Below, one piece after another: positions 205-52,741 of a DNA stretch of 64,000 nt. Position 1 is the stretch's first letter, and each line of letters opens with the position of its first letter. The notes under the pieces were generated by a model. It made no database searches. It saw nothing but the letters and a program-made list of their open reading frames with translations, and was not told the DNA's origin. The position numbers and the translations under genes are program-made. Origin of the DNA: Gardnerella vaginalis (GTDB lineage Bacteria; Actinomycetota; Actinomycetes; Actinomycetales; Bifidobacteriaceae); assembly GCF_040427915.1 (NCBI RefSeq), contig NZ_JBETXJ010000002.1, positions 744,001 through 808,000 of the forward strand, read 5' to 3'.

Positions 205-1779
205 GTGACTGACAAACAAGATGTCATCCTTGAAATGCGTCATATCGTGAAACGTTTTGGTTCGGTTACAGCGCTTGAAGATGTAACATTGAAAGTTCAA
301 CGTGGACAAATATTTTCAATATGTGGAGAGAATGGCGCTGGTAAATCAACGTTGATGAATGTTCTTTCTGGTGTATATCCTCATGGAACATATGAGGGAG
401 ACATTATTTATGAAGGTAATGTTTGTAAATTTAAAACGATTCGTGATTCTGAGGCAAAAGGAATTGTTATCATTCATCAAGAGTTAGCTTTAGTTCCGTA
501 TATGAGTATTGCTGATAATATTTTCCTCAGCAATAGGATTAAAAAGGGAATTGCTATAGATGATACTGAACAATATCGTATTGCTCGCGAAGTTATGAAA
601 ACTGTTGGATTGGATGAAGATCCAAGTAATCTTATTGCTAACATTGGTGTTGGTAAACAACAGCTTGTTGAGATCGCGAAAGCTTTGACGAAAGATGTAA
701 AGCTTTTAATTCTTGATGAACCTACTGCAGCCTTAAATGATGAGGATTCTGCAAATTTGCTTCATCTAATTGATCGTTTGCGTCGTGAGCGTGGTATTAC
801 GGCTATTATTATTTCCCATAAACTTAATGAAATAGCTTATATTGCTGATGCTGTACAAGTGATACGTGATGGTAAGACAATTACTCATATTGATGTTGAT
901 GATCAGCATCCATTGGATCAAGATGAGTTGATTCGCCATATGGTAGGTCGTCCTCTTACTAATAGGTATCCTGAGCATGTTGCAAAAATTGGTAATGAGG
1001 CTTTTCGAATAGAACATTGGAAAGTGCATCATCCGTTAGATGAAAAACGATTAGTTGCCAATGATGTTAGTTTCAATGTGCGTAAGGGTGAGATTGTTGG
1101 CTTAGCTGGATTGATTGGTGCAGGACGAACCGAAACTGCGATGAGTGTTTTTGGTCGACAATATGGCACTAATGCATCTGGTAAATTGTACTTAGATGGC
1201 AAAGAGGTTAAATTCAATTCTGTTCGTTCTGCAATTGATCATGCTGTGGCATATGCTACAGAAAATCGTAAAGTTTATGGATTGAATTTATTAGCTTCTA
1301 TTCGAGAAAATACGTCATTAGCTAATTTAAAGTCAGTTAGTAAGCTAGGTGTTATTGATAGACATAAGGAAGCGAAAGTTGCTGAAGAATATCGTCACGA
1401 TTTTCGTATGAAGTGTAACACTATTGAAATGCCAGTAGGTAATCTTTCAGGCGGTAATCAGCAGAAGGTCGTATTGGCAAAATGGGTGGCAACTCAGCCT
1501 AAGCTTCTTATTCTTGATGAGCCTACGCGTGGCATTGATGTAGGCGCTAAGTATGACATTTATGAGATTATCGACAAGTTAGCAGATTCTGGTAGTGCGA
1601 TAATTGTTATTTCTTCGGAATTGCCAGAATTGCTTGGTATATGTGATCGTATATACACGATGAGTCAAGGCAAAATTACAGCTTGTTTGAATGCTCATGA
1701 GACAAATCAAGAAGAATTAATGAAGTATATGACTTGTGATGTTCCATTGGAATATGAGAAGTCATTTACCGTTGAATAG
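205..1779 (+). CDS. gguA: Multiple-monosaccharide ABC transporter ATP-binding protein (GguA/MmsA type)
   Basis: A 524-residue protein with two fused ATPase domains, the normal size and layout for monosaccharide importers of the RbsA/XylG/GguA class. Half one has Walker A GENGAGKST (about 41-49) and Walker B LLILDEPTAAL. Half two has the degenerate P-loop GLIGAGRTE, signature LSGGNQQKV and LILDEPTRGIDVG, as in the family. The start is GTG with AGGAAAGG about 8 bases upstream. It energises uptake of pentoses or related sugars at the membrane. The flanking receptor and gguB, and the nearby xylulokinase and ROK gene, favour xylose or arabinose as substrate (inference). Confidence 0.9.
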   Translation: MTDKQDVILEMRHIVKRFGSVTALEDVTLKVQRGQIFSICGENGAGKSTLMNVLSGVYPHGTYEGDIIYEGNVCKFKTIRDSEAKGIVIIHQELALVPYMSIADNIFLSNRIKKGIAIDDTEQYRIAREVMKTVGLDEDPSNLIANIGVGKQQLVEIAKALTKDVKLLILDEPTAALNDEDSANLLHLIDRLRRERGITAIIISHKLNEIAYIADAVQVIRDGKTITHIDVDDQHPLDQDELIRHMVGRPLTNRYPEHVAKIGNEAFRIEHWKVHHPLDEKRLVANDVSFNVRKGEIVGLAGLIGAGRTETAMSVFGRQYGTNASGKLYLDGKEVKFNSVRSAIDHAVAYATENRKVYGLNLLASIRENTSLANLKSVSKLGVIDRHKEAKVAEEYRHDFRMKCNTIEMPVGNLSGGNQQKVVLAKWVATQPKLLILDEPTRGIDVGAKYDIYEIIDKLADSGSAIIVISSELPELLGICDRIYTMSQGKITACLNAHETNQEELMKYMTCDVPLEYEKSFTVE

Positions 1780-1845
1780 TTCAATCTATCAGATTTTATT
1801 AGTAATTAAACTTCGCATCGTTGCGTAGCAAAGAAAGAGGATATT

Positions 1846-3075
1846 ATGTTTGGATCAATATCTGCTTATTCAAAGAAGAAAAATACAGCTATTGGTACTC
1901 CTGGATTAAAAGAGCTATTGCTGGGGAATGCTCGTTCTTACGGTATTTATCTTGCTCTCGTTGCTGTTATCATTATTTTCCAAGTGTTGACTGGCAATAG
2001 GTTGTTGTATCCAAATAATGTTGTTGCATTATTCCAACAAAATGCATATGTTATGATTACGGCAATCGGTATGCTTATGATTGTTGTTGCTACACATATT
2101 GATTTATCTGTTGGATCTGCTGTTGCATTCATTGGTGGCTTAGGTGCTTTTGCTATGAAGCATTGGGGAATGAATTGGATGCTTGCAATCGCTTTCATGC
2201 TTTTTATAGGTTTATTAATAGGTGCTTGGCATGGATTCTGGGTAGCGTATGTTGAAGTTCCTGCATTCGTAACCACTTTAGGTGGCATGTTGATCTTTAG
2301 AGGTTTGGCAACTGTTGTTGCAGGTGAGTCTATTCCATTACGTTCTCGCGAATTTAGAGCTATTGCAAAAGATTATCTTCCTAATATTTTTGGATTCTGG
2401 GGCGGATATGATGGATTAACTATCGTTGTAGGTGCTCTTGCTATTGTAGGTGTAATTGTTGTGCAACTGCGTAAGAGAGCGAAGTCGTTGAAGACTGGAT
2501 TATTGATTGAGCCACTTTCGTTTACTATTACGAAAATTGTTGTATCTGTTGCAGCTATTGGTTTTATCACTTATTTATTGGCATCTTCTGGAAATTCTCA
2601 GCAAGGCGGTATACCAATAGTATTGGTTATTATTGCGGTTCTCGTTGGAGTTTTTTGGTTCGTGCTGAATCGCATGATTTTTGGTCGTGATATTTATGCT
2701 GTTGGTGGAAATAGAAAAGCAGCTATTCTTTCTGGCATAAATACTAAATTGGTTGATTTCAAGATTTTCTTAACGATGGGTGTTCTTACAGCAATAGCGT
2801 CTGTTGTAACATTGTCCCGACTTGCATCTGCTACCGCTGCAACTGGGCAAGAATTTGAGATGGATGCTATTGCTGCATGCTTCATTGGTGGTGCTGCTGT
2901 TTCTGGTGGAACTGGTACGATTCCTGGCGCTATGGTTGGTGCATTAATCATGGGTGTTCTCAATCAGGGCTTGTCTATTATGGGTGCGGATGCCGCTATT
3001 GTCAAAACTATTAAAGGTTTGGTGGTTGTTGCTGCTGTTGCCTATGATTTGATTAGCAAGAAGCGCAAAAAGTAA
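1846..3075 (+). CDS. gguB: Multiple-monosaccharide ABC transporter permease (GguB type)
   Basis: A 409-residue polytopic membrane protein of the BPD_transp_2 family (RbsC/XylH/GguB). Hydrophobic segments run throughout, with the family-typical stretch SVGSAVAFIGG near residue 90 and GGAAVSGGTGTIPGAMVGALIMGVLNQG (in two blocks) near the end. It forms the membrane channel for the ATPase encoded 66 bp upstream. RBS AAAGAGG lies 6 bases before ATG. It is convergent with xylB, with two hairpins between them. Confidence 0.9.
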   Translation: MFGSISAYSKKKNTAIGTPGLKELLLGNARSYGIYLALVAVIIIFQVLTGNRLLYPNNVVALFQQNAYVMITAIGMLMIVVATHIDLSVGSAVAFIGGLGAFAMKHWGMNWMLAIAFMLFIGLLIGAWHGFWVAYVEVPAFVTTLGGMLIFRGLATVVAGESIPLRSREFRAIAKDYLPNIFGFWGGYDGLTIVVGALAIVGVIVVQLRKRAKSLKTGLLIEPLSFTITKIVVSVAAIGFITYLLASSGNSQQGGIPIVLVIIAVLVGVFWFVLNRMIFGRDIYAVGGNRKAAILSGINTKLVDFKIFLTMGVLTAIASVVTLSRLASATAATGQEFEMDAIAACFIGGAAVSGGTGTIPGAMVGALIMGVLNQGLSIMGADAAIVKTIKGLVVVAAVAYDLISKKRKK

Positions 3076-5015: not shown

Positions 5016-6251
5016 ATGTCAGCTTTACGAAGTATAAATCAGGATGATTTGCGCAATCATAATTTGTCTGTTGTTTTAGACACTATTTTGCGCTCTGTAG
5101 AGCCTATGACTCGTGCGGAATTGGCTCGCGCAACTGGTTTAACCAAGGCTACAATATCTTTGCTTGTGCAAATACTTATATCTAGTAAGGTTCTTCATGA
5201 GGCAGATAGCGTTTCTGTGCATTATGGTCGTCCTGGTACGTCACTGGCTGTGAGCGTTGGAAGTTTTTGTGCTTTTGGATTACAAATAAATACTGATGGT
5301 TATGGTTTTGCTGCTGTTGATGTAAATGGTGATGTTATTGACGAGCAATGGGTTGATTGTGATATGGATCAGCTCACCGCTAATGAAGTTTTTGATAATT
5401 TAAATAATATTGTGCTTGATAGTGAAACAAAAGCTAGAGAATTAGGGTATGTTATACTCGGCGGTGCATTAGCTTTGCCTGGTGTTGTGATTGATGGATC
5501 TATCTTGTTGGCGTCGCCGAATTTAGGATGGAAAAACCTTAATCTTGGACAATATGAGCTTGTTAAGAGGCTTAATGTGTTTGCTGCAAATGAAGCTAAT
5601 CTTGCGGCTATAGCGCAGATTCCTGGTTTCGCTACGCAGCGTAAAAACGATAGCATTATGAAGCCTTCGGATTCTTTTATCTACATATCAACAGATATTG
5701 GTATTGGTGGTGCTGTTGTTAGAGATGGGCATGTTGTTTATGGTGAAAATGGTTTTGCTGGAGAAATAGGTCATGTGTCTGTGTCTTTAGATGGTCCTAT
5801 TTGTAGGTGTGGAAGACGCGGATGTTTGGAAGCATTTGCTGGCAGGAGAGCATTGGTTGAAACTGCTCGCATTGCTAGTGGGTGTGATGCAACAAAAATT
5901 GAAGCTGTAAATGTTTTACTTGAACGTTGGAAATCTGGTGATGAGATAGTCGTTAGCGCTGTCGATAAAGCAGTAGAAGCTTTAGTATCTGTAATTGGGT
6001 CTGCTGTTAATCTACTGGATATTAATACGGTTATTTTAGGTGGCATTTGGCAGCGATTTGGTGTTGGTCTTACGCAAAGAATTAGTAAAGAACTTACTTC
6101 TGAAGTATTATGCAGCGAAGCTGTGAATGTTAGAGTATTAATGTCAGAAGTTGGTGGAAGGTCTGCATTGCTTGGAGCAGCACAAGTCGCGCTTCGAAGG
6201 TTTATTGATAAACCATTGGACTACATTGAGCAATCAAACATTGATGAATAA
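5016..6251 (+). CDS. ROK-family transcriptional regulator, XylR-like
   Basis: A 411-residue ROK repressor. The N-terminal winged helix (about 18-65, with MTRAELARATGLTKATISLLV) is followed by the sugar-kinase-like domain with DIGIGGAVV, GEIGHVSV and the zinc motif CRCGRRGC (from residue 263). An in-frame TTG lies 8 codons upstream, but ATG 5016 has GAAAGAGG five bases before it and is chosen. Head-to-head placement with xylB and the XylR-like palindrome between them suggest it represses pentose genes and is relieved by xylose or a related ligand (inference). Confidence 0.85.
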   Translation: MSALRSINQDDLRNHNLSVVLDTILRSVEPMTRAELARATGLTKATISLLVQILISSKVLHEADSVSVHYGRPGTSLAVSVGSFCAFGLQINTDGYGFAAVDVNGDVIDEQWVDCDMDQLTANEVFDNLNNIVLDSETKARELGYVILGGALALPGVVIDGSILLASPNLGWKNLNLGQYELVKRLNVFAANEANLAAIAQIPGFATQRKNDSIMKPSDSFIYISTDIGIGGAVVRDGHVVYGENGFAGEIGHVSVSLDGPICRCGRRGCLEAFAGRRALVETARIASGCDATKIEAVNVLLERWKSGDEIVVSAVDKAVEALVSVIGSAVNLLDINTVILGGIWQRFGVGLTQRISKELTSEVLCSEAVNVRVLMSEVGGRSALLGAAQVALRRFIDKPLDYIEQSNIDE

Positions 6252-40972: not shown

Positions 40973-41045
40973 AGCCACTTGACAGAATCGAACTGTCGAC
41001 CTTCTCATTACGAGTGAGACGCTCTACCGACTGAGCTAAAGTGGC
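40973..41045 (-). tRNA. tRNA-Thr (anticodon CGT)
   Basis: On the minus strand: acceptor GCCACTT/AAGTGGC, D-arm TAGCTCAGTCGGTAGAGC, anticodon loop CTCGTAA with CGT, and T-loop GTTCGATTC. It lies 37 bp upstream of tRNA-Leu in the same direction, so they are probably co-transcribed. Confidence 0.95.
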
Positions 41046-41360
41046 AATTTGCCCGAGAAGCATTCGCGACTCGCGCACAAATCAAATACTATATATTAAT
41101 ATTTGCAATTTGTCTAGCATGACGCGCCGCAAATGTTCGCATGTGTTCTAGTCAAAGTGTATTTCTGTCCTCTTTTGTGAGTATCTTGGCAATTGGAAGA
41201 TAGTGATGCACAAGTTTCACTTTGCGCGCATTTACACGTGTTTACTTTATAGTTCACTATGATTCTCGATGATTATTGTGATTAAAACGTGTTCAAGTGT
41301 GCCTAAAGATTGATAAAACAAGGCATCACGTCACTTCATTCAAGATGAAAGGACCAAGAA
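41046..41360. other. 315-bp divergent intergenic region before pgi
   Basis: The stretch separates tRNA-Thr (minus) from pgi (plus) and should carry promoters for both. It is AT-rich. I see no clear consensus promoter, no coding region and no recognisable structured RNA. Confidence 0.5.
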
Positions 41361-43055
41361 ATGGCCATCAATCCACCAGTTGACGCCGTTAAAACACCTG
41401 AATGGGCTGCTTTGCAGAAGCACTATGATGAATTGCAGTCCGAAGGCGTGAGCCTGAAGAAGTGGTTTGCTCAGGATGCAAATCGCGTGGATAAGTTGAG
41501 CTTCGAAGCTGGAGACCTCCACTTCGATCTTTCTAAGAATTTGATTAAGCCAGAGACGCTTAAGCTTTTCGCCGACCTTGCAAAGGCTGTTAAGCTCGAT
41601 GAGCGCACTAAGGCGATGTACACTGGCGTGCACATTAACAACACTGAAGACCGTGCAGTATTGCACACTGCTTTGCGTCGTCCAGCCGAAGACGCTGGCA
41701 AGTTCATGGTAGACGGTCAAGATACCGTTGCCGACGTTCGTGAAGTATTAGGTCGCATTTACGATTTTGCAAACAAGGTTCGCTCCGGCGCTTGGAAGGG
41801 CGTTACTGGCAAGAACATCAAGACCGTTGTAAACATTGGTATCGGCGGTTCCGACCTTGGTCCAGTCATGGTTTACGAAGCCTTGAAGCCATACGCTGAC
41901 GCTGGTATTAGCGCTCGCTACGTTTCCAACATTGATCCAAACGATATGGCAGAAAAGACCAAGGATTTGGATCCAGAAACCACGCTTTTCATCATTGTTT
42001 CCAAGACCTTCACCACTTTGGAAACCTTGACCAACGCTCGTACAGCTCGTACCTGGTTGCTTAACAAGCTTCAGGAGAGCGGTGCTATTGACGGCAGCGA
42101 CGCAAAGAAGGCTGAAGCTGTTGCTAAGCACTTCGTGGCTGTTTCCACCAACCTCGAAAAGGTTGAAGAGTTCGGCATCAACCCAACCAACGCTTTCGGA
42201 TTCTGGAACTGGGTTGGCGGCCGCTACTCCGTAGATTCCGCCGTTGGTACTTCTTTGGCTGTAGTTCTCGGACCAGAGCGCTTCGAAGAGTTCTTGAAGG
42301 GCTTCCACGCAATCGATACTTACTTTGCTGAAACCCCATTCGAGAAGAATGTTGTTGTGCTTCTCGGCATGCTCAACGTTTGGTACCGCAACTTCTACAA
42401 GGTTGCTTCCCACGCTGTTCTTCCATACGATCAGTACTTGCACCGCTTCCCAGCTTATTTGCAGCAGCTCACCATGGAATCCAACGGTAAGTCTGTGCGC
42501 TGGGATGGCACTCCTGTAACAAGCGAAACCGGCGAAATCTTCTGGGGCGAGCCAGGCACCAACGGCCAGCACGCTTTCTACCAGTTGATTCACCAGGGCA
42601 CTCAGCTCATTCCAGCTGATTTCATTGCTTTCGTGAACACGCCAAATCCTACTAAGGATGGCGATCAGGATGTGCACGAGCTCTTCTTGGGCAACTATCT
42701 TGCACAGACCAAGGCTCTTGCTTTCGGCAAGACTGCTGACGAAGTTCGCGCTGAAGGCACTCCAGAAGAGATCGTTCCAGCTCGCGTATTTAGCGGCAAC
42801 CGTCCAACCACGTCCATCTTCGGCGAAGCTTTGACCCCATTTAGCTTGGGCGAGTTGATCGCTCTCTACGAGCACATCACCTTCGTTGAAGGTACTGTTT
42901 GGGGATTGGATTCCTATGACCAGTGGGGTGTGGAGCTTGGCAAGCAGCTTGCAAAGCAGATTACTCCTGCAATCTCTAAGGATGACGATGCTTTGGAAGC
43001 TCAGGATGCTTCTACCCAGAGCTTGATTAGCTTCTACCGCGCTCATCGCAAGTAG
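41361..43055 (+). CDS. pgi: Glucose-6-phosphate isomerase
   Basis: A 564-residue Pgi linking glucose 6-phosphate and fructose 6-phosphate, the entry to the bifid shunt. Signatures: [12 protein letters not shown] (about 157), [13 protein letters not shown], the catalytic-Glu region NGKSVRWDG with [27 protein letters not shown], and the C-terminal [11 protein letters not shown]ys region. Normal family length of about 550. Codons ending in C are enriched compared with neighbours, as in strongly expressed genes. AAAGGA eight bases before ATG; strong terminator after. Confidence 0.97.
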
Positions 43056-43093
43056 TAGTGAGTGTATAGCAATCTTATTTGATTGGTTGATTT

Positions 43094-43133
43094 AAAGCCT
43101 CTTGTTGATTAAATTCTTCAAGAGGCTTTTTTT
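43094..43133 (+). terminator. Terminator of pgi
   Basis: AAAGCCTCTTG (43094-43104) and CAAGAGGCTTT (43119-43129) form an 11-bp stem followed by a T-run. Confidence 0.93.
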
Positions 43134-43188
43134 GTTTTTTGCGTTTTTCTTGCTTGGCATTGCGCGCTTTTCCTATTTAGCGTTGCGC

Positions 43189-43370
43189 GAGGGCTGGGTG
43201 TTTCTTGTCTCACAACGCTCTGCCTCTTGCGTGTTGGTTATTGTTGCGGTTGTTCCGTTTTGGCTTTGATTTTGTTTTTTGGTTGAAGTTTGTTTGTAGT
43301 GGTTGATCATTGGATTATTTGGTATCGGCTGCCGCTCTTATATTGTTCGACCAAGAATCACCCAGCCCTC
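43189..43370. repeat. 182-bp element with about 21-bp terminal inverted repeats
   Basis: GAGGGCTGGGTGTTTCTTGTC (as 43189-43209) is matched, with one mismatch and one extra base, by the complement of 43349-43370. The interior is T/G-rich and non-coding. It could be a small non-autonomous element or a structured RNA; no clear target-site duplication is seen. Confidence 0.55.
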
Positions 43371-43406
43371 TTACATGCTTGAACAATTGCGTACCACTTA
43401 ATCACT

Positions 43407-43492
43407 GAGATTCTCGATTTTTCTTGCTACTTCAGCGAATCACCATTTCATGCTGAGGTTCGCTTCATCCGCTGCGAAAAATCTTGAATCTC
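43407..43492. repeat. 86-bp inverted repeat with 17-bp arms
   Basis: Arms GAGATTCTCGATTTTTC (43407-43423) and GAAAAATCTTGAATCTC (43476-43492) are complementary at 15 of 17 positions. It lies between the preceding 182-bp element and the riboswitch promoter. Confidence 0.6.
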
Positions 43493-43504
43493 TACATAGC
43501 TTGC

Positions 43505-43540
43505 GCTCCGACCTGCCTTTTCACTTAAACCGTAGCGCGA
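43505..43540. repeat. Two-copy intergenic repeat, copy 1
   Basis: It starts GCTCCGACCTGCC and ends CGTAGCGCG; 32 of 35 bases match the copy at 53747-53781. Confidence 0.8.
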
Positions 43541-43560
43541 AAAGTCAATCCAAAAATAGG

Positions 43561-43589
43561 TTGACACAAGAGCAGTGATAATTTATAAT
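43561..43589 (+). promoter_or_regulatory. Consensus promoter of the M-box transcript
   Basis: TTGACA (43561-43566), 17-bp spacer, TATAAT (43584-43589): a perfect sigma70-type promoter. The predicted start near 43595 coincides with the 5' edge of the riboswitch. Confidence 0.92.
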
Positions 43590-43593
43590 AAGC

Positions 43594-43748
43594 ACGGTCG
43601 GTAGGTAAGGCTACCACGGGGATACGGGTTGCTGCCGCAACACAGTGGAGACACTGCACGTTGGTCAACAGTCGTTGTCGATTTCAAGGCTTCGACTAAT
43701 GCAACGCCACCGCCCTGCGAAGCTGAAGCTTGAACGACAAGATTGAGG
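43594..43748 (+). ncRNA. M-box (ykoK leader) Mg2+ riboswitch
   Basis: Matches the conserved M-box blocks in order: GGTAGGTAAGGCTACC, GGGATACG, GCTGCCG, GGTCAACAG, GACTAATGCAA and GCGAAGCTGAAGCTTGAACGAC. M-box RNAs bind Mg2+ and lower expression of Mg2+ uptake genes when Mg2+ is ample (established for the class). The expression platform is less clear: a possible hairpin GAGGCTGATTT/AAATCACCTT and a weak CCGT...ACGG-TTTT stem follow. The first protein genes downstream are a 69-codon ORF and an ABC transporter. Confidence 0.9.
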
Positions 43749-43863
43749 CTGATTTCTTTTGGTTTAAAAATCACCTTGTGTCTTCTTGCTTGCCGTCCGG
43801 TTCAATGATGATACGATAGTACGGTTTTGCGTTGGCGCGCACAAGCTAGAGGAGGTGATTGCC

Positions 43864-44073
43864 GTGAAACATGACAGTAGTAGTAATACCAGTTGTAATA
43901 AAAGTGCTAATACAGTTAATACTGTTAGTGACGATTCAGACAGTATTAGTAGTAGTACGGACGTTCCCCCTGAATATACAAAAGATGAATATAACAAACC
44001 GGCAGTCACCGCCAAAACGTTTGCGATTGAAGATTTTTTGCGATTGAAGATTTTATTTGATTTGTTGGGATAA
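43864..44073 (+). CDS. Small Ser/Asn-rich ORF downstream of the M-box
   Basis: 69 codons from GTG with GGAGG eight bases upstream, which supports translation. The N-terminal half is Ser/Asn/Asp/Thr-rich and repetitive; the middle has DVPPEYTKDEY; the end FLRLKILFDLLG is hydrophobic-amphipathic. The stop lies inside a palindromic-element arm (44067-44086). No family recognised. It may be a regulatory leader peptide between riboswitch and transporter, or a decayed gene. Confidence 0.5.
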   Translation: MKHDSSSNTSCNKSANTVNTVSDDSDSISSSTDVPPEYTKDEYNKPAVTAKTFAIEDFLRLKILFDLLG

Positions 44074-44086
44074 GTCGCCAGCAACC
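44067..44086 (-). repeat. Palindromic-element arm at the small ORF stop
   Basis: The reverse complement of GGTTGCTGGCGACTTATCCC shares 17 of its bases, GCTGGCGACTTATCCCA without break, with the fas linker element at 33358. It overlaps the TAA of the small ORF. Confidence 0.75.
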
Positions 44087-44162
44087 GCGCGCTAAATAAG
44101 CGCTTCTAAAATAAAGTCTAAAATTTTAAGCAAAATTTAAAATAAACGCAAAAAATAGTGGT

Positions 44163-44210
44163 GATAAGCGGCAAACGCGTGTAAAAATACGCGTTCCCAG
44201 AGGACTTATC
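44163..44210 (+). promoter_or_regulatory. Hairpin enclosing the ABC permease ribosome-binding site
   Basis: GATAAG (44163-44168) can pair with CTTATC (44205-44210), which abuts the ATG. Inside, AACGCGT pairs with ACGCGTT around a small loop. The AGAGGA RBS (44199-44204) lies between the stems, so opening or closing the outer stem would change access for ribosomes. Confidence 0.6.
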
Positions 44211-45959
44211 ATGACAATATTTACAACATCTGGAAAAAACGGTGCTAGTACGCAAGTAGACGAAAACACTCGTTTTTGGTCCGACATTATTGTGTGCGTT
44301 GGTATAATCGCGCTTTTTGGAGTAAGCGCTTTCCTTTTGCAGCGCATTAACCAGCCGATTGGACCTAAAGGAATACCTTCTGCAGTTTCAACCGACCTTA
44401 TTAATTTGCCCTACTACACGCTTAGATCCGTGTTTCGTATGATGCTTGCGCTTATAGCATCGCTGATTTTTACGATTGTTTACGGATCTCTTGCAGCGCG
44501 CAGCCGCCGACTAGGCAAGGTTCTTATTCCGTTGCTAGACATTTTGCAATCCGTTCCAATTCTTGGCTTCCTTTCGGCTACAGTAACGATTTGGCTGGTG
44601 ATTTTCCCAGGATCGATGATGGGAGTTGAAGCCGCTTCGATTTTTGCGATTTTTACAAGCCAGGCTTGGAATATGACTTTCTCGTTCCACCGTTCGCTTT
44701 TAAGCGAGCCGAAAGAGCTAGACGAGGCAGTGCGCAGCTTGCAACTTACGCATTGGCAGCGATTCTGGGTGCTGGATATGCCAAACGCAATGATTCCGCT
44801 GCTTTGGAATTGCATGATGAGTGTTGGCGGCGGATGGTTCTTCCTTACTGCTTCCGAAATGATTTCCGTAAACAATCACACTTACGCGCTGCCTGGAGTA
44901 GGTAGTTTTGTGGCGCAATCTGCAGCAGAAAACAAGCTTGGAAACATTTGGTGGGCTATTTTATCCATGATTGTTGTTGTGCTAGCGATTGACTTCTTCC
45001 TTTGGAAGCCGCTTACCGCCTGGGCAGAGCGATTCCGCATAACTCAAAGCGCATCCGACGAAGAACGAAAGAGTGCTGTTTTGACACTTATTCGTCATTC
45101 GCATGCCGACGAAGTTATTAGCAAGCTGTTTTCTCCAATTCGCGAGTGGCTTGAAATCATTACACGACCATTCGGACGCACAGGTTCACAGTGGCCGCGT
45201 AAAGCATCACAGCGTAAACTTGGCGACTTGGTTTTCAACATTGTTATGGCTGTGCTGATTTTGGGGCTTGCTGCTCAAATGCTTTACTTTGTAGCAACTC
45301 GCACAGGTTTGCAAGAGTTCGCTACAGCTGGAGCGTTAGGAGCTTTGACTTTTGCTCGCGTAGCTGTGCTGATTTTTGTAAGCTCGCTGATTTGGGTTCC
45401 AGTAGGCGTATATATTGGCATGAATCCTAAGATTTCGCGAATTATGCAACCTGTTGTGCAAATTCTGGCTAGCTTCCCAGCAAACTTTATATTCCCATTT
45501 GCAATGATGTGGTTTATGGCTTGGCATATTGACCTTGGTTGGGGAAGTATTATTTTGATGGCTCTTGGCACACAATGGTACATTCTGTTTAACGTTATTG
45601 CTGGAGCGAGCGCGATTCCAGATGATTTAAGAGAAATGACAAGAAGCTTTAGATTAAATCGTGTACTCAAGTGGAAAACTCTTGTTTTGCCTGCGATTTT
45701 TGGATCCTGGTGCACTGGTGGAATTACTGCCGCTGGCGGTGCTTGGAACGCTTCGATTGTGGCGGAGATTGTGGAATATGGCAAGAATCACATGGCAACT
45801 CAGGGTTTGGGCGCGTATATTACGAACGCAACAACCGTTGGTGATTCTGTAAAAACGCTTGTGGGAGTAACGGTTATGAGCTTAATTGTTGTGTTAAGTA
45901 ATCGACTGTTCTGGACGCCTTTGCAAAGGTATTCAGCAAAAAGATTTGTTTTGAATTAG
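44211..45959 (+). CDS. ABC transporter permease with two fused permease domains
   Basis: A 582-residue membrane protein in which two BPD_transp_1 domains of the nitrate/sulfonate/bicarbonate (TauC-like) class are joined. EAA-type loops occur in each half (KELDEAVRSLQLTHWQRFWV near 170 and DLREMTRSFRLNRVLKWKTL near 470). The ATPase gene follows after 110 bp. No binding-protein gene is adjacent. Position downstream of an M-box suggests a role in Mg2+ or other cation uptake (inference); family annotation alone would say nitrate or sulfonate. Confidence 0.85.
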   Translation: MTIFTTSGKNGASTQVDENTRFWSDIIVCVGIIALFGVSAFLLQRINQPIGPKGIPSAVSTDLINLPYYTLRSVFRMMLALIASLIFTIVYGSLAARSRRLGKVLIPLLDILQSVPILGFLSATVTIWLVIFPGSMMGVEAASIFAIFTSQAWNMTFSFHRSLLSEPKELDEAVRSLQLTHWQRFWVLDMPNAMIPLLWNCMMSVGGGWFFLTASEMISVNNHTYALPGVGSFVAQSAAENKLGNIWWAILSMIVVVLAIDFFLWKPLTAWAERFRITQSASDEERKSAVLTLIRHSHADEVISKLFSPIREWLEIITRPFGRTGSQWPRKASQRKLGDLVFNIVMAVLILGLAAQMLYFVATRTGLQEFATAGALGALTFARVAVLIFVSSLIWVPVGVYIGMNPKISRIMQPVVQILASFPANFIFPFAMMWFMAWHIDLGWGSIILMALGTQWYILFNVIAGASAIPDDLREMTRSFRLNRVLKWKTLVLPAIFGSWCTGGITAAGGAWNASIVAEIVEYGKNHMATQGLGAYITNATTVGDSVKTLVGVTVMSLIVVLSNRLFWTPLQRYSAKRFVLN

Positions 45960-45971
45960 GCGATTGGCTAG

Positions 45972-46003
45972 TCGCAAGCAACCAATGATTAGTTGCTTAA
46001 ATT
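45972..46003. repeat. Palindromic-element arm after the permease gene
   Basis: GTCGCAAGCAACC is followed by a short dyad (GCAAC/GTTGC). It belongs to the same family as 27830 and 34476. Confidence 0.55.
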
Positions 46004-46069
46004 GCTGAATAAATAAATTCAAAAAAATTAAACTTATAAACTTATAAATTTATAAACTTTACGAAAAGA

Positions 46070-47632
46070 TTGGCAAATATTATGAACACTTTGAATAAAA
46101 CCGCGGAAAAGGCTGCGCAGAATTTTGCTGCGCAATCTTCAATTACAAGCGATATCATCGACGCGAAACACATAACTCAAAGTTTCACATCGGATAGCGG
46201 CACTACTCAGCACGTGCTTCACGATATATCGTTTACGCTGCGAGAGGGTGAAATCGTTGCAATTCTAGGGCGTTCTGGCGCTGGAAAATCAACCTTCTTG
46301 CGAACAATGGCAGGCTTAATTCAGCCAACAGAGGGAACTGTAACGTATCGCGGTCGCGAGCTTACGGGTCCAAATCCTGGGGTGGCAATCGTGTTCCAAA
46401 CCTTCGCACTTATGCCATGGCTTACCGTTCAAGATAATGTGGAGCTTGGTTTGCGCGCTAGAGGCGTTAGCAAAGAAAAGCGCACGGAGCTTGCGCTCGC
46501 TGCAATAGATGCGATTGGCTTGGACGGCTTTGAAACAGCGTATCCAAAGGAGCTTTCTGGCGGTATGCGTCAGCGCGTAGGTATTGCGCGCGCACTGGTT
46601 TTGCGCCCAGATGCTCTGTTTATGGATGAGCCTTTCTCTGCGCTTGACGTTCTTACTGCAGAAAATCTTCGTCAGGAAGTTCTTAAGCTTTGGTCTAGTG
46701 AAGAGCGCGATATTAAGTCTGTTGTAATCGTTACGCACAATATTGAAGAAGCTGTGCAAATGGCAGATCGAGTGGTGGTTTTGGGATCTCATCCTGGACA
46801 TTTGATTGCAGACGTGCAAGTTGATTTGCCTCGCCCGAGAGACAAGCATAGTGCCGAATTTGAGGCGATGGTTGATAATCTTTATGCGATTTTGACTGGT
46901 TCTATGCCAGAGGGTGAATCTGAGCCAGATAATACTGATACAACGGTTGCTGGCGACTTGTCTGGTGCAGATGGCGATTCTCAACCTGTGGAACAGACGG
47001 ATGCAGAAGAAACAGAGGCTGCTGCAATCGCCGACATGCTTATTCAAAAGCATCACGATGCGGAGGCAGAAGCTAAGCAAAACGAAGAGCAGACGGATGC
47101 GGGGGAGCCAAAACCTGAGCCTGTTGCTGTGCACTTGCTGCCGAACGCAACGCCAGGAGGAATGGCAGGTTTGCTAGATGTTATTTCGGAAGAGCCAGAT
47201 GGTATTGATTTGGCTGATTTGGCTGCGGATTTGTCGTTTGAAATCGATGACTTGTTCCCACTTGTTGATGCTGGAACAATGCTTAATTTGCTTACAGCAG
47301 AAAATGGTCATATTACTATTACTCCAGCAGGTCAAGAATGGCATAACGCCGACATTTTGCACAGCAAGCAGGTGTTTGCGCGTCTTGCAATTGAGCATGC
47401 TCCTCTTGTTCATGCAATTGATCAGGCTTTGAGTCGAAACCGCAACGGCAAGCTTCGTGGCGAGTTGATTTTGGATTTACTTCGCAGCAAGCACACGGAT
47501 GCTTTGGCTCGTCAGCAGTTTGATATTGCGATTAGCTGGGGTCGTTATGGTGAGCTTTTTGACTACGATGCCGATGATGACGAATTAACTCGTACTGTTG
47601 AGACGGCACCGCTTAATGGAGTTGTGCGCTGA
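46070..47632 (+). CDS. ABC transporter ATP-binding protein with AAA-associated C-terminal domain
   Basis: 520 residues from TTG 46070; ATG 46082 is an alternative and neither has a clear RBS. The ATPase domain (about 25-260) has GRSGAGKST, Q-loop VFQTFALMPW, signature LSGGMRQRV and LFMDEPFSALD. An acidic linker (about 275-350) contains a palindromic-repeat-derived stretch TTVAGDLSG. The C-terminal part (about 350-510) is the AAA-associated domain found with TauB-like ATPases of this transporter class. It drives the two-domain permease encoded just upstream. A 12-bp hairpin follows. Confidence 0.88.
   Translation: MANIMNTLNKTAEKAAQNFAAQSSITSDIIDAKHITQSFTSDSGTTQHVLHDISFTLREGEIVAILGRSGAGKSTFLRTMAGLIQPTEGTVTYRGRELTGPNPGVAIVFQTFALMPWLTVQDNVELGLRARGVSKEKRTELALAAIDAIGLDGFETAYPKELSGGMRQRVGIARALVLRPDALFMDEPFSALDVLTAENLRQEVLKLWSSEERDIKSVVIVTHNIEEAVQMADRVVVLGSHPGHLIADVQVDLPRPRDKHSAEFEAMVDNLYAILTGSMPEGESEPDNTDTTVAGDLSGADGDSQPVEQTDAEETEAAAIADMLIQKHHDAEAEAKQNEEQTDAGEPKPEPVAVHLLPNATPGGMAGLLDVISEEPDGIDLADLAADLSFEIDDLFPLVDAGTMLNLLTAENGHITITPAGQEWHNADILHSKQVFARLAIEHAPLVHAIDQALSRNRNGKLRGELILDLLRSKHTDALARQQFDIAISWGRYGELFDYDADDDELTRTVETAPLNGVVR
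46945..46960 (+). repeat. Palindromic-element arm inside the ATPase linker
   Basis: GGTTGCTGGCGACTTG matches the arm at 44067-44086 (inverted) and 33355. It is in frame and codes for VAGDL in the linker. Confidence 0.7.
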
Positions 47633-47684
47633 AATAGTGCGAAATAGTGCGAAATAATGCTCAATAATGTCCATTATTGAGCAT
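47631..47684 (+). terminator. Tandem repeat and 12-bp hairpin after the ATPase gene
   Basis: Three 10-bp units (GAAATAGTGC, GAAATAGTGC, GAAATAATGC; 47631-47660) overlap the stop codon. ATGCTCAATAAT/ATTATTGAGCAT (47657-47668 with 47673-47684) form a perfect stem with a 4-base loop, without a long T-tract. Confidence 0.65.
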
Positions 47685-47895
47685 AAATTTGTGTTCTGTA
47701 TGCTTTCGATAAGGCGATGCCGCATAGTCGACTTATCAATAGTCTAGCCTGCTTTTTTAAAGTTTTGGCAGATGGAAGCCCTGAAAAGCAAACTTTTTGG
47801 GAAGGATTATTCAAAGTAAAGTTGAAAAAGTTAAAATTAGACTAACTTACTTTGATGTAGCTTACGTCGATATGCGGCGGCGAGGAGGAATTATC

Positions 47896-48264
47896 ATGGT
47901 GAATGCTGTAGAAGCATTTGATGCTAAGCATCTTAAGTCTGCTGAGGAAATCCCAGCTTTCCGTCCTGGAGATACTGTTGACGTTAACGTTAAGATTCAG
48001 GAAGGCAACAACACTCGTATTCAGACCTTTACTGGCGTTGTTATCGCTCGTAAGGGTGCTGGCGTTCGCGAGACTTTCGTTGTACGTAAGGTGAGCTTCG
48101 GCACTGGTGTTGAGCGTCGCTTCCCACTTCATTCCCCAGCTATCGATTCTATCAAGCTGGTTCGTAGTGGTCGCGTTCGTCGCGCTAAGCTTTACTACTT
48201 GCGCGCTTTGCGTGGTAAGGCTGCTCGTATTGCCGAGCGTCGTGACAACAGCGCTGCTAAGTAA
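47896..48264 (+). CDS. rplS: 50S ribosomal protein L19
   Basis: A 122-residue L19 at the 30S-50S interface. Typical stretches: [35 protein letters not shown] (in parts), [24 protein letters not shown] and the basic C-terminus [11 protein letters not shown]. The open frame extends 33 codons upstream, but GAGGAGG seven bases before ATG 47896 and family length set the start. It is followed closely by lepB and rnhB, a usual actinobacterial order. Confidence 0.96.
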
Positions 48265-48302
48265 ATTTATTTAAGGTTAAGGATTTAACGTTAAGGATTA
48301 AT

Positions 48303-49157
48303 ATGTCTGCCGAAGACTTGCAAAATAGCGATGGTCACATTGTTAATGTGGCAGGTCACGGCTTAAATCCTTCTCCAGTTCCACCGGAGCCAGAAGAAAG
48401 ACCAAGTCTAACTTCTGGCTTCAGTGCTAAACGTGCTAGGCATGGAAAAATAAAAGGGAATCATATTTCTGGATATCAAGATAGTGATTATGATTCCTCT
48501 AAATCTCAGTCCAAGGTTCGTACTCGCAAGCTTTTTAAAACATCTTGGAAAGAGCTTGTTGCATGGTATCTTGTGCCTATTCTTGTTGTTATTTTTCTTC
48601 GTGTTTTTATCCTCGGCGTATATTTTATTCCGTCTGGCTCTATGCTAGACACAATTCATATTGGCGATTATGTTGTTACGTCTAAGCTCACTCCTCGACT
48701 GTTTCCGCTAAATCGTGGAGATATTGTTGTTTTTGAAGATCCTGCTAATTGGCTTCAAGGTGAAAATAGTCGCGGCGGAATTGTGTCTGGTAAAGATCTT
48801 ATAAAGCGTCTAATTGGATTGCCTGGGGATACCGTTGAATGTAAGGGCGATGGTGACCCAATTCTTGTTAACGGTGTTCCTGTGCTTGAATCTGCTTATA
48901 TTAAACCAGGTGTAAGTCCTAGTTCCTTCCCGTTTAAGGTGAAGGTTAAACCTGGTCATGTATTTGTTCTAGGAGATAATCGCGCTAACTCGGCGGATTC
49001 TAGGTATCATAAGAATGATGGTGACGATGGTTTGGTACCTATTTCTAAGGTTGAAGGCGTGGCATTTATGCGTTTTTGGCCTTTGAACCGTATGGGTATT
49101 TTTGAAAATCATAGCGATGCGTTTGATGATGTAAGAAATAAGTCAGATGCTAAATAG
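48303..49157 (+). CDS. lepB: Signal peptidase I
   Basis: A 284-residue membrane-bound type I signal peptidase. A long polar, cytosolic N-terminus (about 1-80) leads to one transmembrane helix (LVPILVVIFLRVFILGVYFI). Catalytic Ser113 is in PSGSM, and Lys168 in DLIKRLIGLPGD is the general base; GDNRANSADSR is box E. It removes signal peptides of exported proteins such as the coiled-coil and lysozyme proteins of this window. It lies 38 bp after rplS. Confidence 0.94.
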   Translation: MSAEDLQNSDGHIVNVAGHGLNPSPVPPEPEERPSLTSGFSAKRARHGKIKGNHISGYQDSDYDSSKSQSKVRTRKLFKTSWKELVAWYLVPILVVIFLRVFILGVYFIPSGSMLDTIHIGDYVVTSKLTPRLFPLNRGDIVVFEDPANWLQGENSRGGIVSGKDLIKRLIGLPGDTVECKGDGDPILVNGVPVLESAYIKPGVSPSSFPFKVKVKPGHVFVLGDNRANSADSRYHKNDGDDGLVPISKVEGVAFMRFWPLNRMGIFENHSDAFDDVRNKSDAK

Positions 49158-49196
49158 TTCTTTTAAACGTGCGTAGATATTAGATTTGGGGAGATT

Positions 49197-49880
49197 TTGG
49201 CTGCTGTTCCGTCTTTTAACTTTGAGCAAGACCTTTTAAAAAGTGGCTTCGATTGGGTTATTGGATTAGATGAGGTTGGACGTGGTAGTTTAGCTGGTCC
49301 TGTTATGGTTGGTGCTGCGCTTTTTGGTGCCGATAAAATTAATTCTGGTTATTTTCCTGATGGATTAGCTGATTCCAAGCTTATTAACGCTCACAAGCGT
49401 GAAGGATTATTGGAGCCTCTTGAAAATTGGTGCGATGCTTTTGCTGTTGGTTCTTGTACAAATCGCGAGATTGACGAGTGGGGAATAAGTTATGCTCTTG
49501 GTGTTGCCGCGATTCGTGCAATTTCAGATGTGCAAAACAGTATGAGATATAAGCTTGAAAATGCTCATATTGCAGCGATTTTAGATGGACCATTTAATTA
49601 TATTGGTAAGGTTTCTGGAACTTTTGATGCGCCTAGTATGGATTTTCCTGTTAAAGTTCACACTTTAGTTAAGGCTGATCAGAAGTGTGCTAGTGTTTCT
49701 GCAGCTTCTGTGATCGCAAAGGTGACTCGAGATTCTCTTATGACAAGCTTGTCTGATGATCCTAAATATAAAATTTATGATTGGGCACATAACAAGGGTT
49801 ATGGTTCTAAATCGCATAGAGCTGCGATTCTAGAGTATGGTCCTAGTGATTTGCATCGTATTAGTTGGCATTTAAGCTAA
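49197..49880 (+). CDS. rnhB: Ribonuclease HII
   Basis: A 227-residue RNase HII that cuts RNA in RNA-DNA hybrids, including single ribonucleotides. The active-site motif GLDEVGRGSLAGP has Asp25 and Glu26; LDGPF and KADQKCASVSAASVIAKVTRD carry further family residues. TTG start with GGGGAG a few bases upstream. 39 bp after lepB, probably the same transcript. Confidence 0.93.
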   Translation: MAAVPSFNFEQDLLKSGFDWVIGLDEVGRGSLAGPVMVGAALFGADKINSGYFPDGLADSKLINAHKREGLLEPLENWCDAFAVGSCTNREIDEWGISYALGVAAIRAISDVQNSMRYKLENAHIAAILDGPFNYIGKVSGTFDAPSMDFPVKVHTLVKADQKCASVSAASVIAKVTRDSLMTSLSDDPKYKIYDWAHNKGYGSKSHRAAILEYGPSDLHRISWHLS

Positions 49881-50140
49881 AGTTCTTCGGCGTGTTGATG
49901 CCTGATGCTCAGCGTAATCTTGAATGCTAAAGGGGTAGTGAGCTAGTGCGTGGGTATGTGTTTGTAGAGAGTGTTTAGATAGCGTTTTTAAGAGATTTAA
50001 AGCTGATTTTAACAGTGCGAGCTACTCGAATTTGTAGATTCAATCTGCAGGGTATCGTGTGTTTACTTTGCAGTGCGTGAAAGTATTTTTGGAATTTAAA
50101 AGAGTTTTCTATGGACTATGGAAAAGAAAAGGATAGTTAA

Positions 50141-52741
50141 ATGATTGGTCGTTTCTTCGCTTTTGTTCCAGGTGTTAAGCACTTGGTTGTTTTAAGAGCG
50201 GCATGTCTTGCTATATCTTCTCTTGCGAATATTGGTTTTGTGTATGTTTGTGTTGGAATTCTTTCGCCAGTGCTTATTCCTGCAAAATATACTGGCAAAT
50301 CCTTGTTAAGCTCTGTTGAATTGACGTCTTATCTTATTTCTCTTGTTGGAATACTTATCGTAAAATATATTGCGTTCCATCAGTCTTGTACTATTTCTAC
50401 CGAAATTGGAACTCGCGTATCTATGAAGCTTAGACCAAAAATGTTGCGTTCTATGCTTTCTTTGAGCTCCTCTAAAAAGTGGTCTAAGGGATATTCTTCT
50501 ATTTGCGTGAACGATGATGTTGAGTGGGTTCAACGTTGGTCTGGTTTACTTTTGCCGCAGATCATTGCTGCTTTTCCTATGCCTTTTGCGGTTAGTGTTG
50601 CAATGTTTTCAATAAACTCTTATGTTGCCACTATTTGCGTTTTTGCGTCAATTTTTTCTACTTTGGCACTTGTATCTGCTCTTGCAGATGTTCGCGTTTT
50701 GTGGCGCTGTTTATGCGTATTTTTAACGTATTTAATGACTGGTGTGGCAATTATTTCTACAGTTTGGCTTCTTTCTGTTAAATCTGTTGGTCTTCCTGCT
50801 GCAATGCTAACTTTGCCACTTCTTATGCTAAGCGTAGATCCAATACGTAGAGTTGCTAACTGTATGCATATTAAAAATCGGGCTGTTTTAGGTTTGAATA
50901 ACATTAGTGACTTGTTTAAAAGTGTTGCTTCTAGTAAAGTTCATTCTTCTAATTTAGACTCTGTAGAATCTTCTGCTTCTGCAGATTCCATAGATTTCTC
51001 AGATAATAAAAAGTCGCTGAGCATCCCAGATGGAGCTAGTAATGTTTCTCTTCATGTGCGATGCAATTTCACTGAAAATAATAAACCTTTGCGCGCATCC
51101 TTTAATATTTCAAGTGGAAAATTGAATGTAATGCCAAAGGAATACTACGAATTATTTACTAATAATGTTTTGAATGGCGTAGTTTTTAGCGATAAATCAG
51201 ATGTTGCGCTATCTTACAGCGATAGATATGGTTTTCCTGAAGTAGATGTTGAATCGCCTTTTGTAGTATCTGATTTTGGTGATATTTCTGGAAACTCAAC
51301 TTATGTTTCACTAAATAATGCAAATCCTGGTGCTATTGCAGATCTTGTTACTATTGTTCGTTCAAATAGTCATCTGTTTTCAGCCACCTTGCGAGAGAAT
51401 CTTCTCATGGCATCGTCTAATGCTACTACTACATCCATGTGGCAAGCATTGCGTACTGCTCATGTAGATGGTGTTGTTTATGCGGATTATAACGGATTAG
51501 ATTTGCGCGTAGATAATATTCAGGTTGAAAATAAGCAAGACATTTTCCGACGAATTATTATGGCTCGTGCTCTTATTCGTAGAACTCCAGTGTATATTTT
51601 CGACTATTCTTCAAGCGATATTAGTTCTGATGAAGCTAAGAATTTATGTGATATTTTGCGTCATGTTGCTAAAAAAGCTACGATTCTTGTATTTTTGCCA
51701 GACGATAACTACGTTTCTAAAGCAGACAATTTGGTTCACGTTAGTGTATATCATAATTCGCATTACACTAGTTCTAGTGCTATTAGCTCTTATGCCGAAA
51801 ATCTTGCAGATGGTAGCGTTGATAAAGCTAATAAAGTAGACGAATATGCTAAAAGTTTTGATAAAAACTCTAATAAGAATTTTAATAATGCAAAACACGA
51901 AGGCTTATTGAAAGATTTAGCTCATGAAAGTAAATCCACCATATCTTCGCTGAAAAAGGCATTTTTTGCGATTCTTTCAGCATTTTCTACAGCAATCAAT
52001 ATAGTTTGCGCAGTATTGATACCTGTTTGCACTTTTGCAGCAATGTTCGCTATCGCTAATCGCCCGCTTTTTGGACTTGCTATGCAAGAATACGTGCTTA
52101 TCGTAAGCGTATGTGCATGTTTAAGATGCATAACATTAGTAACATCTTTTGCTGGTGTGGATCTTCATCATGCGCATTTGCACAAGGCAGGTTTAAGCAT
52201 GAGTGTTGGAATGGTTTTGTCGATTATTCCAGCAATCGTCTTGTTATGTTACTTTGATATTCAAATTGCTATTTTTGCTGTTGTGATTTGTTCTCTAATA
52301 GTATTTATAATTCCAGGATTATTTAGACTTAGACTCCGCAGTTTTATTAAGAAAGTTCATTCAGAACAAAAGATGGTGGAGCTTGAAGTTGATGATGTAG
52401 AACTTGGTATTGATGAGGTTCTAGCTTTCCGACAGGGTGAGCATTGTGTTAAGCGTGTTGTTGATTCAATGCGTAAGCTTTCGCAACAGCGAGTGCGATT
52501 ATCTCGTAAAGTGGGAAGAATGCAGGCAATTCTTATGTCTGTTGCTCTTATAGGTATTGCGAACACAATAATGCTTGTTTCTAACACTATTCACCCAATT
52601 GTCACTAAGAATCCACAATGGAATGTTGTTTACGCGGTTATGGCAATTATTGTGCTTATTAGCCTTATTCAACAAGTTTTAGACGTTGTTATTAGGCGTA
52701 TCCCTTGGGTTGTAGACATAAATCATGCAGTACGATCGTAA
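50141..52741 (+). CDS. CydDC-like ABC exporter with degenerate ATPase domain
   Basis: 866 residues: an exporter-type membrane domain (about 1-250), a nucleotide-binding-like domain (about 300-565), then a second membrane domain (about 610-850) with no second ATPase. The layout looks like CydD joined to the membrane half of CydC. The ATPase is broken: the P-loop position reads SSGKLNVMPKEYY, the LSGGQ position VENKQD, Walker B ends IFDYSSSD (catalytic Glu replaced by Tyr), and the H-loop is absent. The long uninterrupted frame argues for a retained, non-hydrolytic role. AAAGGA precedes ATG. It overlaps the HNH nuclease gene by 17 bp. Confidence 0.7.
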   Translation: MIGRFFAFVPGVKHLVVLRAACLAISSLANIGFVYVCVGILSPVLIPAKYTGKSLLSSVELTSYLISLVGILIVKYIAFHQSCTISTEIGTRVSMKLRPKMLRSMLSLSSSKKWSKGYSSICVNDDVEWVQRWSGLLLPQIIAAFPMPFAVSVAMFSINSYVATICVFASIFSTLALVSALADVRVLWRCLCVFLTYLMTGVAIISTVWLLSVKSVGLPAAMLTLPLLMLSVDPIRRVANCMHIKNRAVLGLNNISDLFKSVASSKVHSSNLDSVESSASADSIDFSDNKKSLSIPDGASNVSLHVRCNFTENNKPLRASFNISSGKLNVMPKEYYELFTNNVLNGVVFSDKSDVALSYSDRYGFPEVDVESPFVVSDFGDISGNSTYVSLNNANPGAIADLVTIVRSNSHLFSATLRENLLMASSNATTTSMWQALRTAHVDGVVYADYNGLDLRVDNIQVENKQDIFRRIIMARALIRRTPVYIFDYSSSDISSDEAKNLCDILRHVAKKATILVFLPDDNYVSKADNLVHVSVYHNSHYTSSSAISSYAENLADGSVDKANKVDEYAKSFDKNSNKNFNNAKHEGLLKDLAHESKSTISSLKKAFFAILSAFSTAINIVCAVLIPVCTFAAMFAIANRPLFGLAMQEYVLIVSVCACLRCITLVTSFAGVDLHHAHLHKAGLSMSVGMVLSIIPAIVLLCYFDIQIAIFAVVICSLIVFIIPGLFRLRLRSFIKKVHSEQKMVELEVDDVELGIDEVLAFRQGEHCVKRVVDSMRKLSQQRVRLSRKVGRMQAILMSVALIGIANTIMLVSNTIHPIVTKNPQWNVVYAVMAIIVLISLIQQVLDVVIRRIPWVVDINHAVRS

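Follow-up and report, generated by a model that had tools for sequence, protein, structure and literature searches.

Organization of the locus

In Gardnerella vaginalis (RefSeq assembly GCF_040427915.1), a stretch of 64,000 nucleotides (contig NZ_JBETXJ010000002.1, positions 744,001 to 808,000 of the forward strand; hereafter the window, whose own numbering is used) carries at 43561-47632 a consensus promoter, an M-box (Mg2+) riboswitch, a 69-codon open reading frame (ORF), a fused two-domain ABC permease and an ABC ATPase, in this order (Table 1). A first-pass annotation from sequence alone had described this arrangement and proposed an ABC-type importer of Mg2+ or another cation, or a Mg2+-linked physiology. 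ORF coordinates and Pfam matches agree with its account of the genes, and the covariance-model search that it had suggested for the 43590-43760 region identified the RNA as RF00380: the plus-strand match at 43590-43750 spans the full model and scores 98.1 bits (gathering score 44; cmscan, E 1.7e-20), and no other M-box match in the 1.64 Mb genome reaches E<=0.001. It starts at the first base after a promoter with 12/12 consensus matches, as the annotation had it, and the permease gene downstream is one that we infer to be Mg2+-related. The annotation had also named a terminator with a separate promoter between riboswitch and permease as evidence that would count against its proposal; pattern scans found no plus-strand terminator-like site and no plus-strand promoter-like site (at least 9/12) between the M-box and the permease start (43750-44211). 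Sites like the hairpin behind the ATPase (Table 1) number 4 in 43000-48000, against 5.9 expected by shuffling.

The two transporter proteins show the combination of a BPD_transp_1 permease and an ABC ATPase that characterizes NitT/TauT ABC importers, and their nearest relatives of known structure, for both subunits, are the bicarbonate importers CmpB and CmpD and the nitrate importers NrtB and NrtC/D. The likeness to NrtBCD and CmpBCD thus lies in the sequence relatedness of both subunits, while the Gardnerella system differs in its fused permease domains, its AAA_assoc_C domain on the ATPase (PF09821 at 120.1 bits, in addition to ABC_tran), its M-box control and the lack of a binding-protein gene, none being seen on visual inspection of the ORFs listed for 41000-50500, in agreement with the first-pass annotation. 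Both proteins score far below the equivalog cut-offs of characterized NitT/TauT members (permease: ntrB 81 vs 209, TauC 60 vs 342, SsuC 32 vs 347; ATPase: best match SaoA 211 vs 360, ntrCD 199 vs 292), and the best 120 of 7999 homologues of the permease are all 99-100% identical; its 99% identity to proteins named Gardnerella vaginalis marks the window's genome as one of Gardnerella type. No homology of either protein to CorA, MgtE or MgtA was found, their Pfam and NCBIfam matches being to ABC and general P-loop families; with the CorA, MgtE, MgtA/B and NRAMP-type Mg2+ transporters the system would share its inferred role and its regulon, whereas the protein family is unrelated. A small hydrophobic ORF without a Pfam or NCBIfam match lies at 43102-43269, between the upstream gene and the promoter.

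Table 1. Features of the M-box operon region (window coordinates)
Feature	Position	Strand	Evidence and remarks
Sigma-70-type promoter, TTGACA-17-TATAAT	43561..43589	+	12/12 consensus matches; stretch aligned across Gardnerella-type kin as well, whether or not they carry the M-box
M-box (Mg2+) riboswitch aptamer, RF00380	43590..43750	+	98.1 bits, model positions 1-169
Candidate anti-Shine-Dalgarno segment AATCACCT	43769..43776	+	Could pair with 43853-43860; only in the window's genome and G118, whose folds differ; suggestive only
Strong Shine-Dalgarno sequence AGGAGGTG of the leader ORF	43850..43857	+	Sequence
Leader ORF, 69 codons, VKHDSSS...DVPPEY...	43864..44073	+	GTG start at 43864; kept in 12/12 Gardnerella-type genomes
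Fused two-domain ABC permease, 582 amino acids	44211..45959	+	PF00528 (BPD_transp_1), two stretches; COG4986-type according to published work on the B. breve locus
ABC ATPase with C-terminal AAA_assoc_C, 520 amino acids	46070..47632	+	PF00005 and PF09821; TTG start from the ORF list, ATG at 46082
12-pair hairpin 3' of the ATPase, perhaps the operon end	47657..47684	.	Pattern scan

Linkage of the M-box to the permease in Bifidobacteriaceae

The association of RNA and transporter extends across the family. Among 189 Bifidobacteriaceae genomes, searched for M-boxes with strict filters that may have lost weak matches, the permease is present in 68 (E<=1e-20) and the M-box in 41, and in all 41 the M-box lies directly before the permease on the same strand (order verified on fetched DNA for 30 genomes and by coordinates for all 41). 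The co-occurrence in related genomes that the first-pass annotation had wanted checked is strict from the side of the RNA. The M-box is separated from the permease match by 101-131 nt in 16 genomes and by 292-769 nt in 24; in the remaining one, G112, it stands ahead of a truncated permease gene, recovered only in its last part. Within the close-spaced group, 11 genomes were read and have 73-76 nt between the M-box and the start of the permease frame, the other 5 being placed by coordinates. Many aptamer columns are invariant among 25 aligned M-box sequences.

Searches with model R1 or Rfam found no M-box upstream of the permease in the remaining 27/68 permease genomes. Half of the 12 Gardnerella-type genomes (the window's own and 11 CorA-less kin with the permease) are of this kind and keep the promoter and the leader ORF (loci L033, L034, L036, L038, L041 and L042); there, promoter and leader start adjoin and about 240 nt are missing, the promoter not being displayed for G123 and for part of G090. 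The edges of this stretch in M-box genomes bear GCAC or a near copy, so loss by a slip between short repeats is possible. As the six genomes fall into at least two branches of a permease tree, the M-box was lost more than once or its absence spread by recombination. Genome G024 has an MgtA-type P-ATPase frame (657.7 bits; L069, 3235-5787, minus strand) within its M-box operon, directly behind the ABC ATPase and in the same direction.

Mg2+ importers of the family

CorA is absent from 34/189 family genomes (14 of the 34 identified by elimination from printed positives), including the window's genome and 11 near kin. MgtE exceeds its cut-off in 0/189 genomes, with weaker matches in 17, and MgtA does so in 21/189, the window's genome not among them. 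The latter has no match to CorA, MgtE, NRAMP or PHO4 and no MgtA over the cut-off; its three P-type ATPase frames touched by the MgtA search score best as other types (Ca2+ type, 639 vs 798; H+ type, 254 vs 616; heavy-metal type, 434, over its cut-off of 346). It also has a CNNM protein, of a family that comprises mostly exporters.

Of 19 CorA-less family genomes of good quality (completeness >=90%, contamination <=5%), 11 have the ABC system and 8 have MgtA over the cut-off, with none having both and none having neither. Among all 34, the ABC system occurs in 13 and MgtA over the cut-off in 17 (one of these matches, G013:C146:4822-6723, contains in-frame stops), and the 4 genomes with neither (G069, G161, G168 and G188) are 57-80% complete, two of them, G168 and G188, having partial MgtA matches. 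This split represents two or three evolutionary events rather than nineteen, since the 11 genomes are close kin and the 8 belong to two genera.

Relatives outside the family

In an even draw of 396 Actinomycetota genomes the permease (E<=1e-60) was found in 16, the window's genome included, and 1 of 16 loci fetched from other genomes has an M-box (L081, genome G476). A set of named genomes, the best 80 of at least 580 relatives, comprises 30 loci of non-bifidobacterial Actinomycetota, 7 of Bifidobacteriaceae, 5 of Bacillota, 2 of Chloroflexota, 13 of Cyanobacteriota, 22 of Pseudomonadota and 1 of Vulcanimicrobiota. An M-box lies upstream on the operon strand in 15/80 loci, namely in 7/30 other Actinomycetota, 4/7 Bifidobacteriaceae, 3/5 Bacillota (Pelosinus and two Paenibacillus) and 1/2 Chloroflexota (Anaerolineae), and in 0/13 Cyanobacteriota, 0/22 Pseudomonadota and 0/1 Vulcanimicrobiota.

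Known Mg2+ genes recur beside these operons. In all 7 M-box loci of non-bifidobacterial Actinomycetota (three Tsukamurella, four Nocardia) mgtC sits between the M-box and the permease, giving the order M-box-mgtC-permease-ATPase, and 5 further loci (L100-L104; Mycobacterium, Mycolicibacterium, Amycolatopsis, Saccharopolyspora) have the order mgtA(-mgtC)-permease-ATPase. By tblastn, mgtA, mgtC or corA occurs within the fetched flanks of 17/80 loci (16/30 other Actinomycetota and 1/5 Bacillota); the search covered MgtA, MgtC and CorA, with baits taken from such loci, two of which (L102 and L152) are among the 17. Profiles gave MgtA 858 bits in L100, 645 in L102 and 642 in L101 against a cut-off of 611, and confirmed MgtC (PF02308) in L096 and L108 and CorA in L152 and L119; the MgtC of L102 is under the NCBIfam equivalog cut-off (195 vs 255), mgtA of L107 is on the opposite strand, and the MgtC span of L131 contains a stop codon.

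Mapping the label 'M-box in front' (18 rows; Streptomyces orinoci L109 left out) onto an 88-permease tree requires 9 changes, 7 of them forced by well-supported branches, against a mean of 16.5 for shuffled labels and 0/500 shuffles as low as 9. The label is thus clustered on the permease tree, but with many losses or gains. In S. orinoci two M-boxes (1751-1924, minus strand; 5688-5861, plus strand) flank the ABC genes, beside the permease and not ahead of it; the right one precedes an NRAMP gene and the left one a frame with MgtC_SapB_C and Trans_reg_C domains. Behind the ABC operon of Bifidobacterium mizhiense (L116, 5594-5666) a fluoride riboswitch is barely over its gathering score (36.4 vs 34 bits). 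We do not claim that the whole COG4986-type family transports Mg2+, because the loci seen of its cyanobacterial and pseudomonadotal members give no sign of a Mg2+ link.

A leader ORF with an acidic start

The 69-codon ORF, which the first-pass annotation had listed without recognizing it as a member of a conserved leader class, is present in 12/12 Gardnerella-type genomes, whether or not the M-box is there; its peptide begins VKHDS or VKQDS and has the core DVPPEY. In the rest of the family the same place is occupied by another short ORF, preceded by a similar Shine-Dalgarno sequence (41/44 genomes; not found in G062, G110 and G112), 36 being found through the Shine-Dalgarno pattern and 5, with weaker sites, through similarity, a chance match in G110 being left uncounted. 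Leaders in 8/8 further genomes bring the total to 49/52, and the other 16 of the 68 permease genomes are those in which the permease closely follows the M-box. The leader also occurs without the M-box in 13/13 genomes of the G095-G107 group and in G140 and G148.

These leaders (MADDLPSS, MSDELPSS, MDDVPHHS, MDSDSAHQ and similar starts) share an acidic beginning: Asp or Glu occurs in residues 2-5 of 41/41, against 6/32 long ORFs of the window taken as control, the unbiased count being 36/36 because acidic leader peptides had served as queries in finding 5 of the leaders. The same holds for the 8 further leaders, the candidate having been chosen by position in three genomes. The 41 leaders comprise 21 distinct six-residue starts, near kin among them not being independent. 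In five genomes with the start MDDVPHHS, the 11 pairwise differences in codons 2-8 are all synonymous and in the third position (about three events), with 0 amino-acid changes, while in codons 9-30 differences are even by position (129/139/134) and 179/220 amino-acid pairs differ. This contrast indicates, at the level of codon comparison, selection on the initial residues of the nascent chain in this group, and conservation confined to the first eight codons is what a nascent-peptide sensor would be expected to show. Weaker tests gave 35 synonymous vs 27 non-synonymous single changes (positions 39/41/57) in codons 2-16 of MADDLPSS-type leaders, and 275 vs 399 (positions 607/668/825) over the whole Gardnerella-type ORF. 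A functional small protein was considered unlikely, because only codons 2-8 are conserved in the five genomes and neither Pfam nor NCBIfam has a family matching the window's ORF.

Outside the family, M-boxes are followed by a Shine-Dalgarno-led short ORF in 11/12 loci (relaxed pattern; L081 read by eye), and in 9 of the 11 it has Asp or Glu in residues 2-5 (MPDDS, MPDGS, MPEGN, MDSDS and MDSSS types), the start having been picked by eye among several; we regard these as a lead. The closest known counterparts are MgtL, CorL and MgtQ of Salmonella and E. coli, likewise short ORFs that precede a Mg2+ gene and encode acidic residues close to the N terminus, such as Asp2 and Glu5 of MgtQ in the available passages of PMC8092293 and PMC11552253. 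The ORFs described here differ in sequence, in phylum and in standing behind an M-box in part of the genomes, and by analogy their translation may abort at low Mg2+ and so raise expression downstream.

Proposed regulation

In M-boxes of the Bacillus subtilis type the expression platform is an intrinsic terminator. Such a platform was rejected for the present locus, given that the pattern scan showed no plus-strand terminator-like site in 43750-44211; the aptamer family RF00380 is not defined by its expression platform, and control here would be translational or Rho-based. A single conserved anti-Shine-Dalgarno segment was sought and not found, the pairing segments differing between species: among the predicted folds of six Gardnerella-type M-box genomes, those of G000, G120, G091 and G113 have the leader Shine-Dalgarno sequence clearly paired, that of G118 has it half open and that of G122 largely open. 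Because pairing varies across these folds, the switch, like the pairing itself, is put forward conditionally.

The region 43561-47632 would then act as one Mg2+-responsive operon. When Mg2+ is scarce, the M-box may leave open the ribosome site of the first ORF, which is the leader here and the permease itself in the 16 close-spaced relatives, and the acidic leader start may add a second, ribosome-based Mg2+ check ahead of the transporter. This scheme draws on analogy with acidic runs at the start of nascent chains, which destabilize the ribosome in a manner counteracted by high Mg2+ (PMC9718836, in the part available), and with the MgtL and CorL leaders, which the accessible text of PMC11552253 ties to Rho-dependent termination. 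The mRNA would run on into a NitT/TauT-type ABC importer lacking a binding protein, which would take up Mg2+ and so replace the CorA missing in the lineage.

Alternative explanations

The strict M-box linkage, the mgtA, mgtC and corA neighbours and the lack of any other recognized Mg2+ importer in the CorA-less Gardnerella group together favor import of Mg2+ by this ABC system, or at the least some Mg2+-linked transport, and these comparisons support the corresponding proposal of the first-pass annotation. Several observations weigh against it. The relatives of known structure transport bicarbonate and nitrate; CorA is also present in 55/68 family permease genomes; 27 of these 68 lack the M-box; the 11 CorA-less genomes with the ABC system form a single, closely related group; neither an M-box nor, by tblastn of the flanks, MgtA, MgtC or CorA was found in the 36 loci from Cyanobacteriota, Pseudomonadota and Vulcanimicrobiota; outside the MDDVPHHS group the leader peptide has weaker codon support; and in the modelled folds the leader Shine-Dalgarno sequence is clearly paired in only 4/6 genomes.

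The first two of these points would also suit a transporter for some other substrate needed at low Mg2+ (an anion, a polyamine or another cation), which the M-box merely places in the Mg2+ regulon. We consider this unlikely, though it is the most serious of the alternatives: the CorA-less Gardnerella-type genomes would then have no recognized Mg2+ importer, and mgtA, mgtC and corA adjoin the operon in other lineages. Import of another divalent metal (Mn2+, Co2+ or Ni2+), with Mg2+ acting as regulator only, could be argued from the NRAMP gene behind the second M-box of S. orinoci and from the ability of M-box aptamers to bind other divalent ions in vitro; it appears improbable given that the neighbouring mgtA and mgtC are Mg2+ genes and that the division of CorA-less genomes into those with the ABC system and those with MgtA relates to Mg2+. 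That the M-box is a functionless relic might be read from its absence in 6/12 Gardnerella-type genomes that keep promoter and leader, and in 27/68 permease genomes overall, but the invariant aptamer columns, the position kept in 41/41 M-box genomes and the location of the M-box within an expressed 5' untranslated region (5'UTR) in Bifidobacterium breve, as described in the available part of PMC5746004, make this very improbable.

The locus is thus probably, as far as comparison of genomes can tell, an operon in which an M-box and a leader check govern a binding-protein-less ABC importer that takes up Mg2+ in place of CorA. Going further, and more tentatively, Mg2+ transporters might include a new class represented by this system, an ABC importer without a binding protein that would be the sole Mg2+ importer in Gardnerella and Mg2+-linked in at least three phyla, under the tandem control of an M-box and of an acidic leader (MDDVPHHS, MADDLPSS and MPDDS types) that senses Mg2+ via the stability of the ribosome. 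To our knowledge, leader-peptide sensing of this kind is known only from enterobacteria.

Relation to previous work and significance

The basic link between an M-box and a COG4986 ABC transporter is already in print: in B. breve UCC2003 an M-box within an expressed 5'UTR precedes Bbr_0406-07, for which the authors suggested in 2017 a role in metal-ion homeostasis (PMC5746004, part of the text). That locus has the same RNA class and the same kind of ABC operon; relative to the part of that account available, the comparative survey, the CorA-less distribution, the Mg2+-gene neighbours and the leader ORF come from the present analysis. It was the one paper found in the open-licence literature on COG4986 or on bifidobacteria with an M-box. 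New are the cross-phylum and neighbour evidence, the CorA-less distribution and the leader ORF, literature on the leader class having been searched via MgtL and intrinsic ribosome destabilization only. No ABC-type Mg2+ importer appeared by title or abstract in the open-licence literature searched; wording of this kind occurs in four papers, three of which apply it to MgtA (PMC5183988, PMC5757984) or to a metabolic-model reaction (PMC12755811). An interplay of B12 riboswitches with translation of upstream ORFs is described for Mycobacterium tuberculosis in the passages retrieved from PMC11260477, where 'M-box' has 0 occurrences by passage search. An RNA-regulon survey lists the M-box, its main text, as far as available, being without mention of bifidobacteria or ABC transporters (PMC3766115), and this locus goes unmentioned in the accessible parts of a vaginal metatranscriptome paper (PMC8886902) and of a study of essential genes in B. 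breve (PMC5514069).

If the proposed role is correct, it would explain how bacteria without CorA, MgtE and MgtA, such as Gardnerella, are supplied with Mg2+, would give a function to part of a widespread and so far unassigned ABC family, and would provide a case of a riboswitch and a leader peptide acting in series for one ion.

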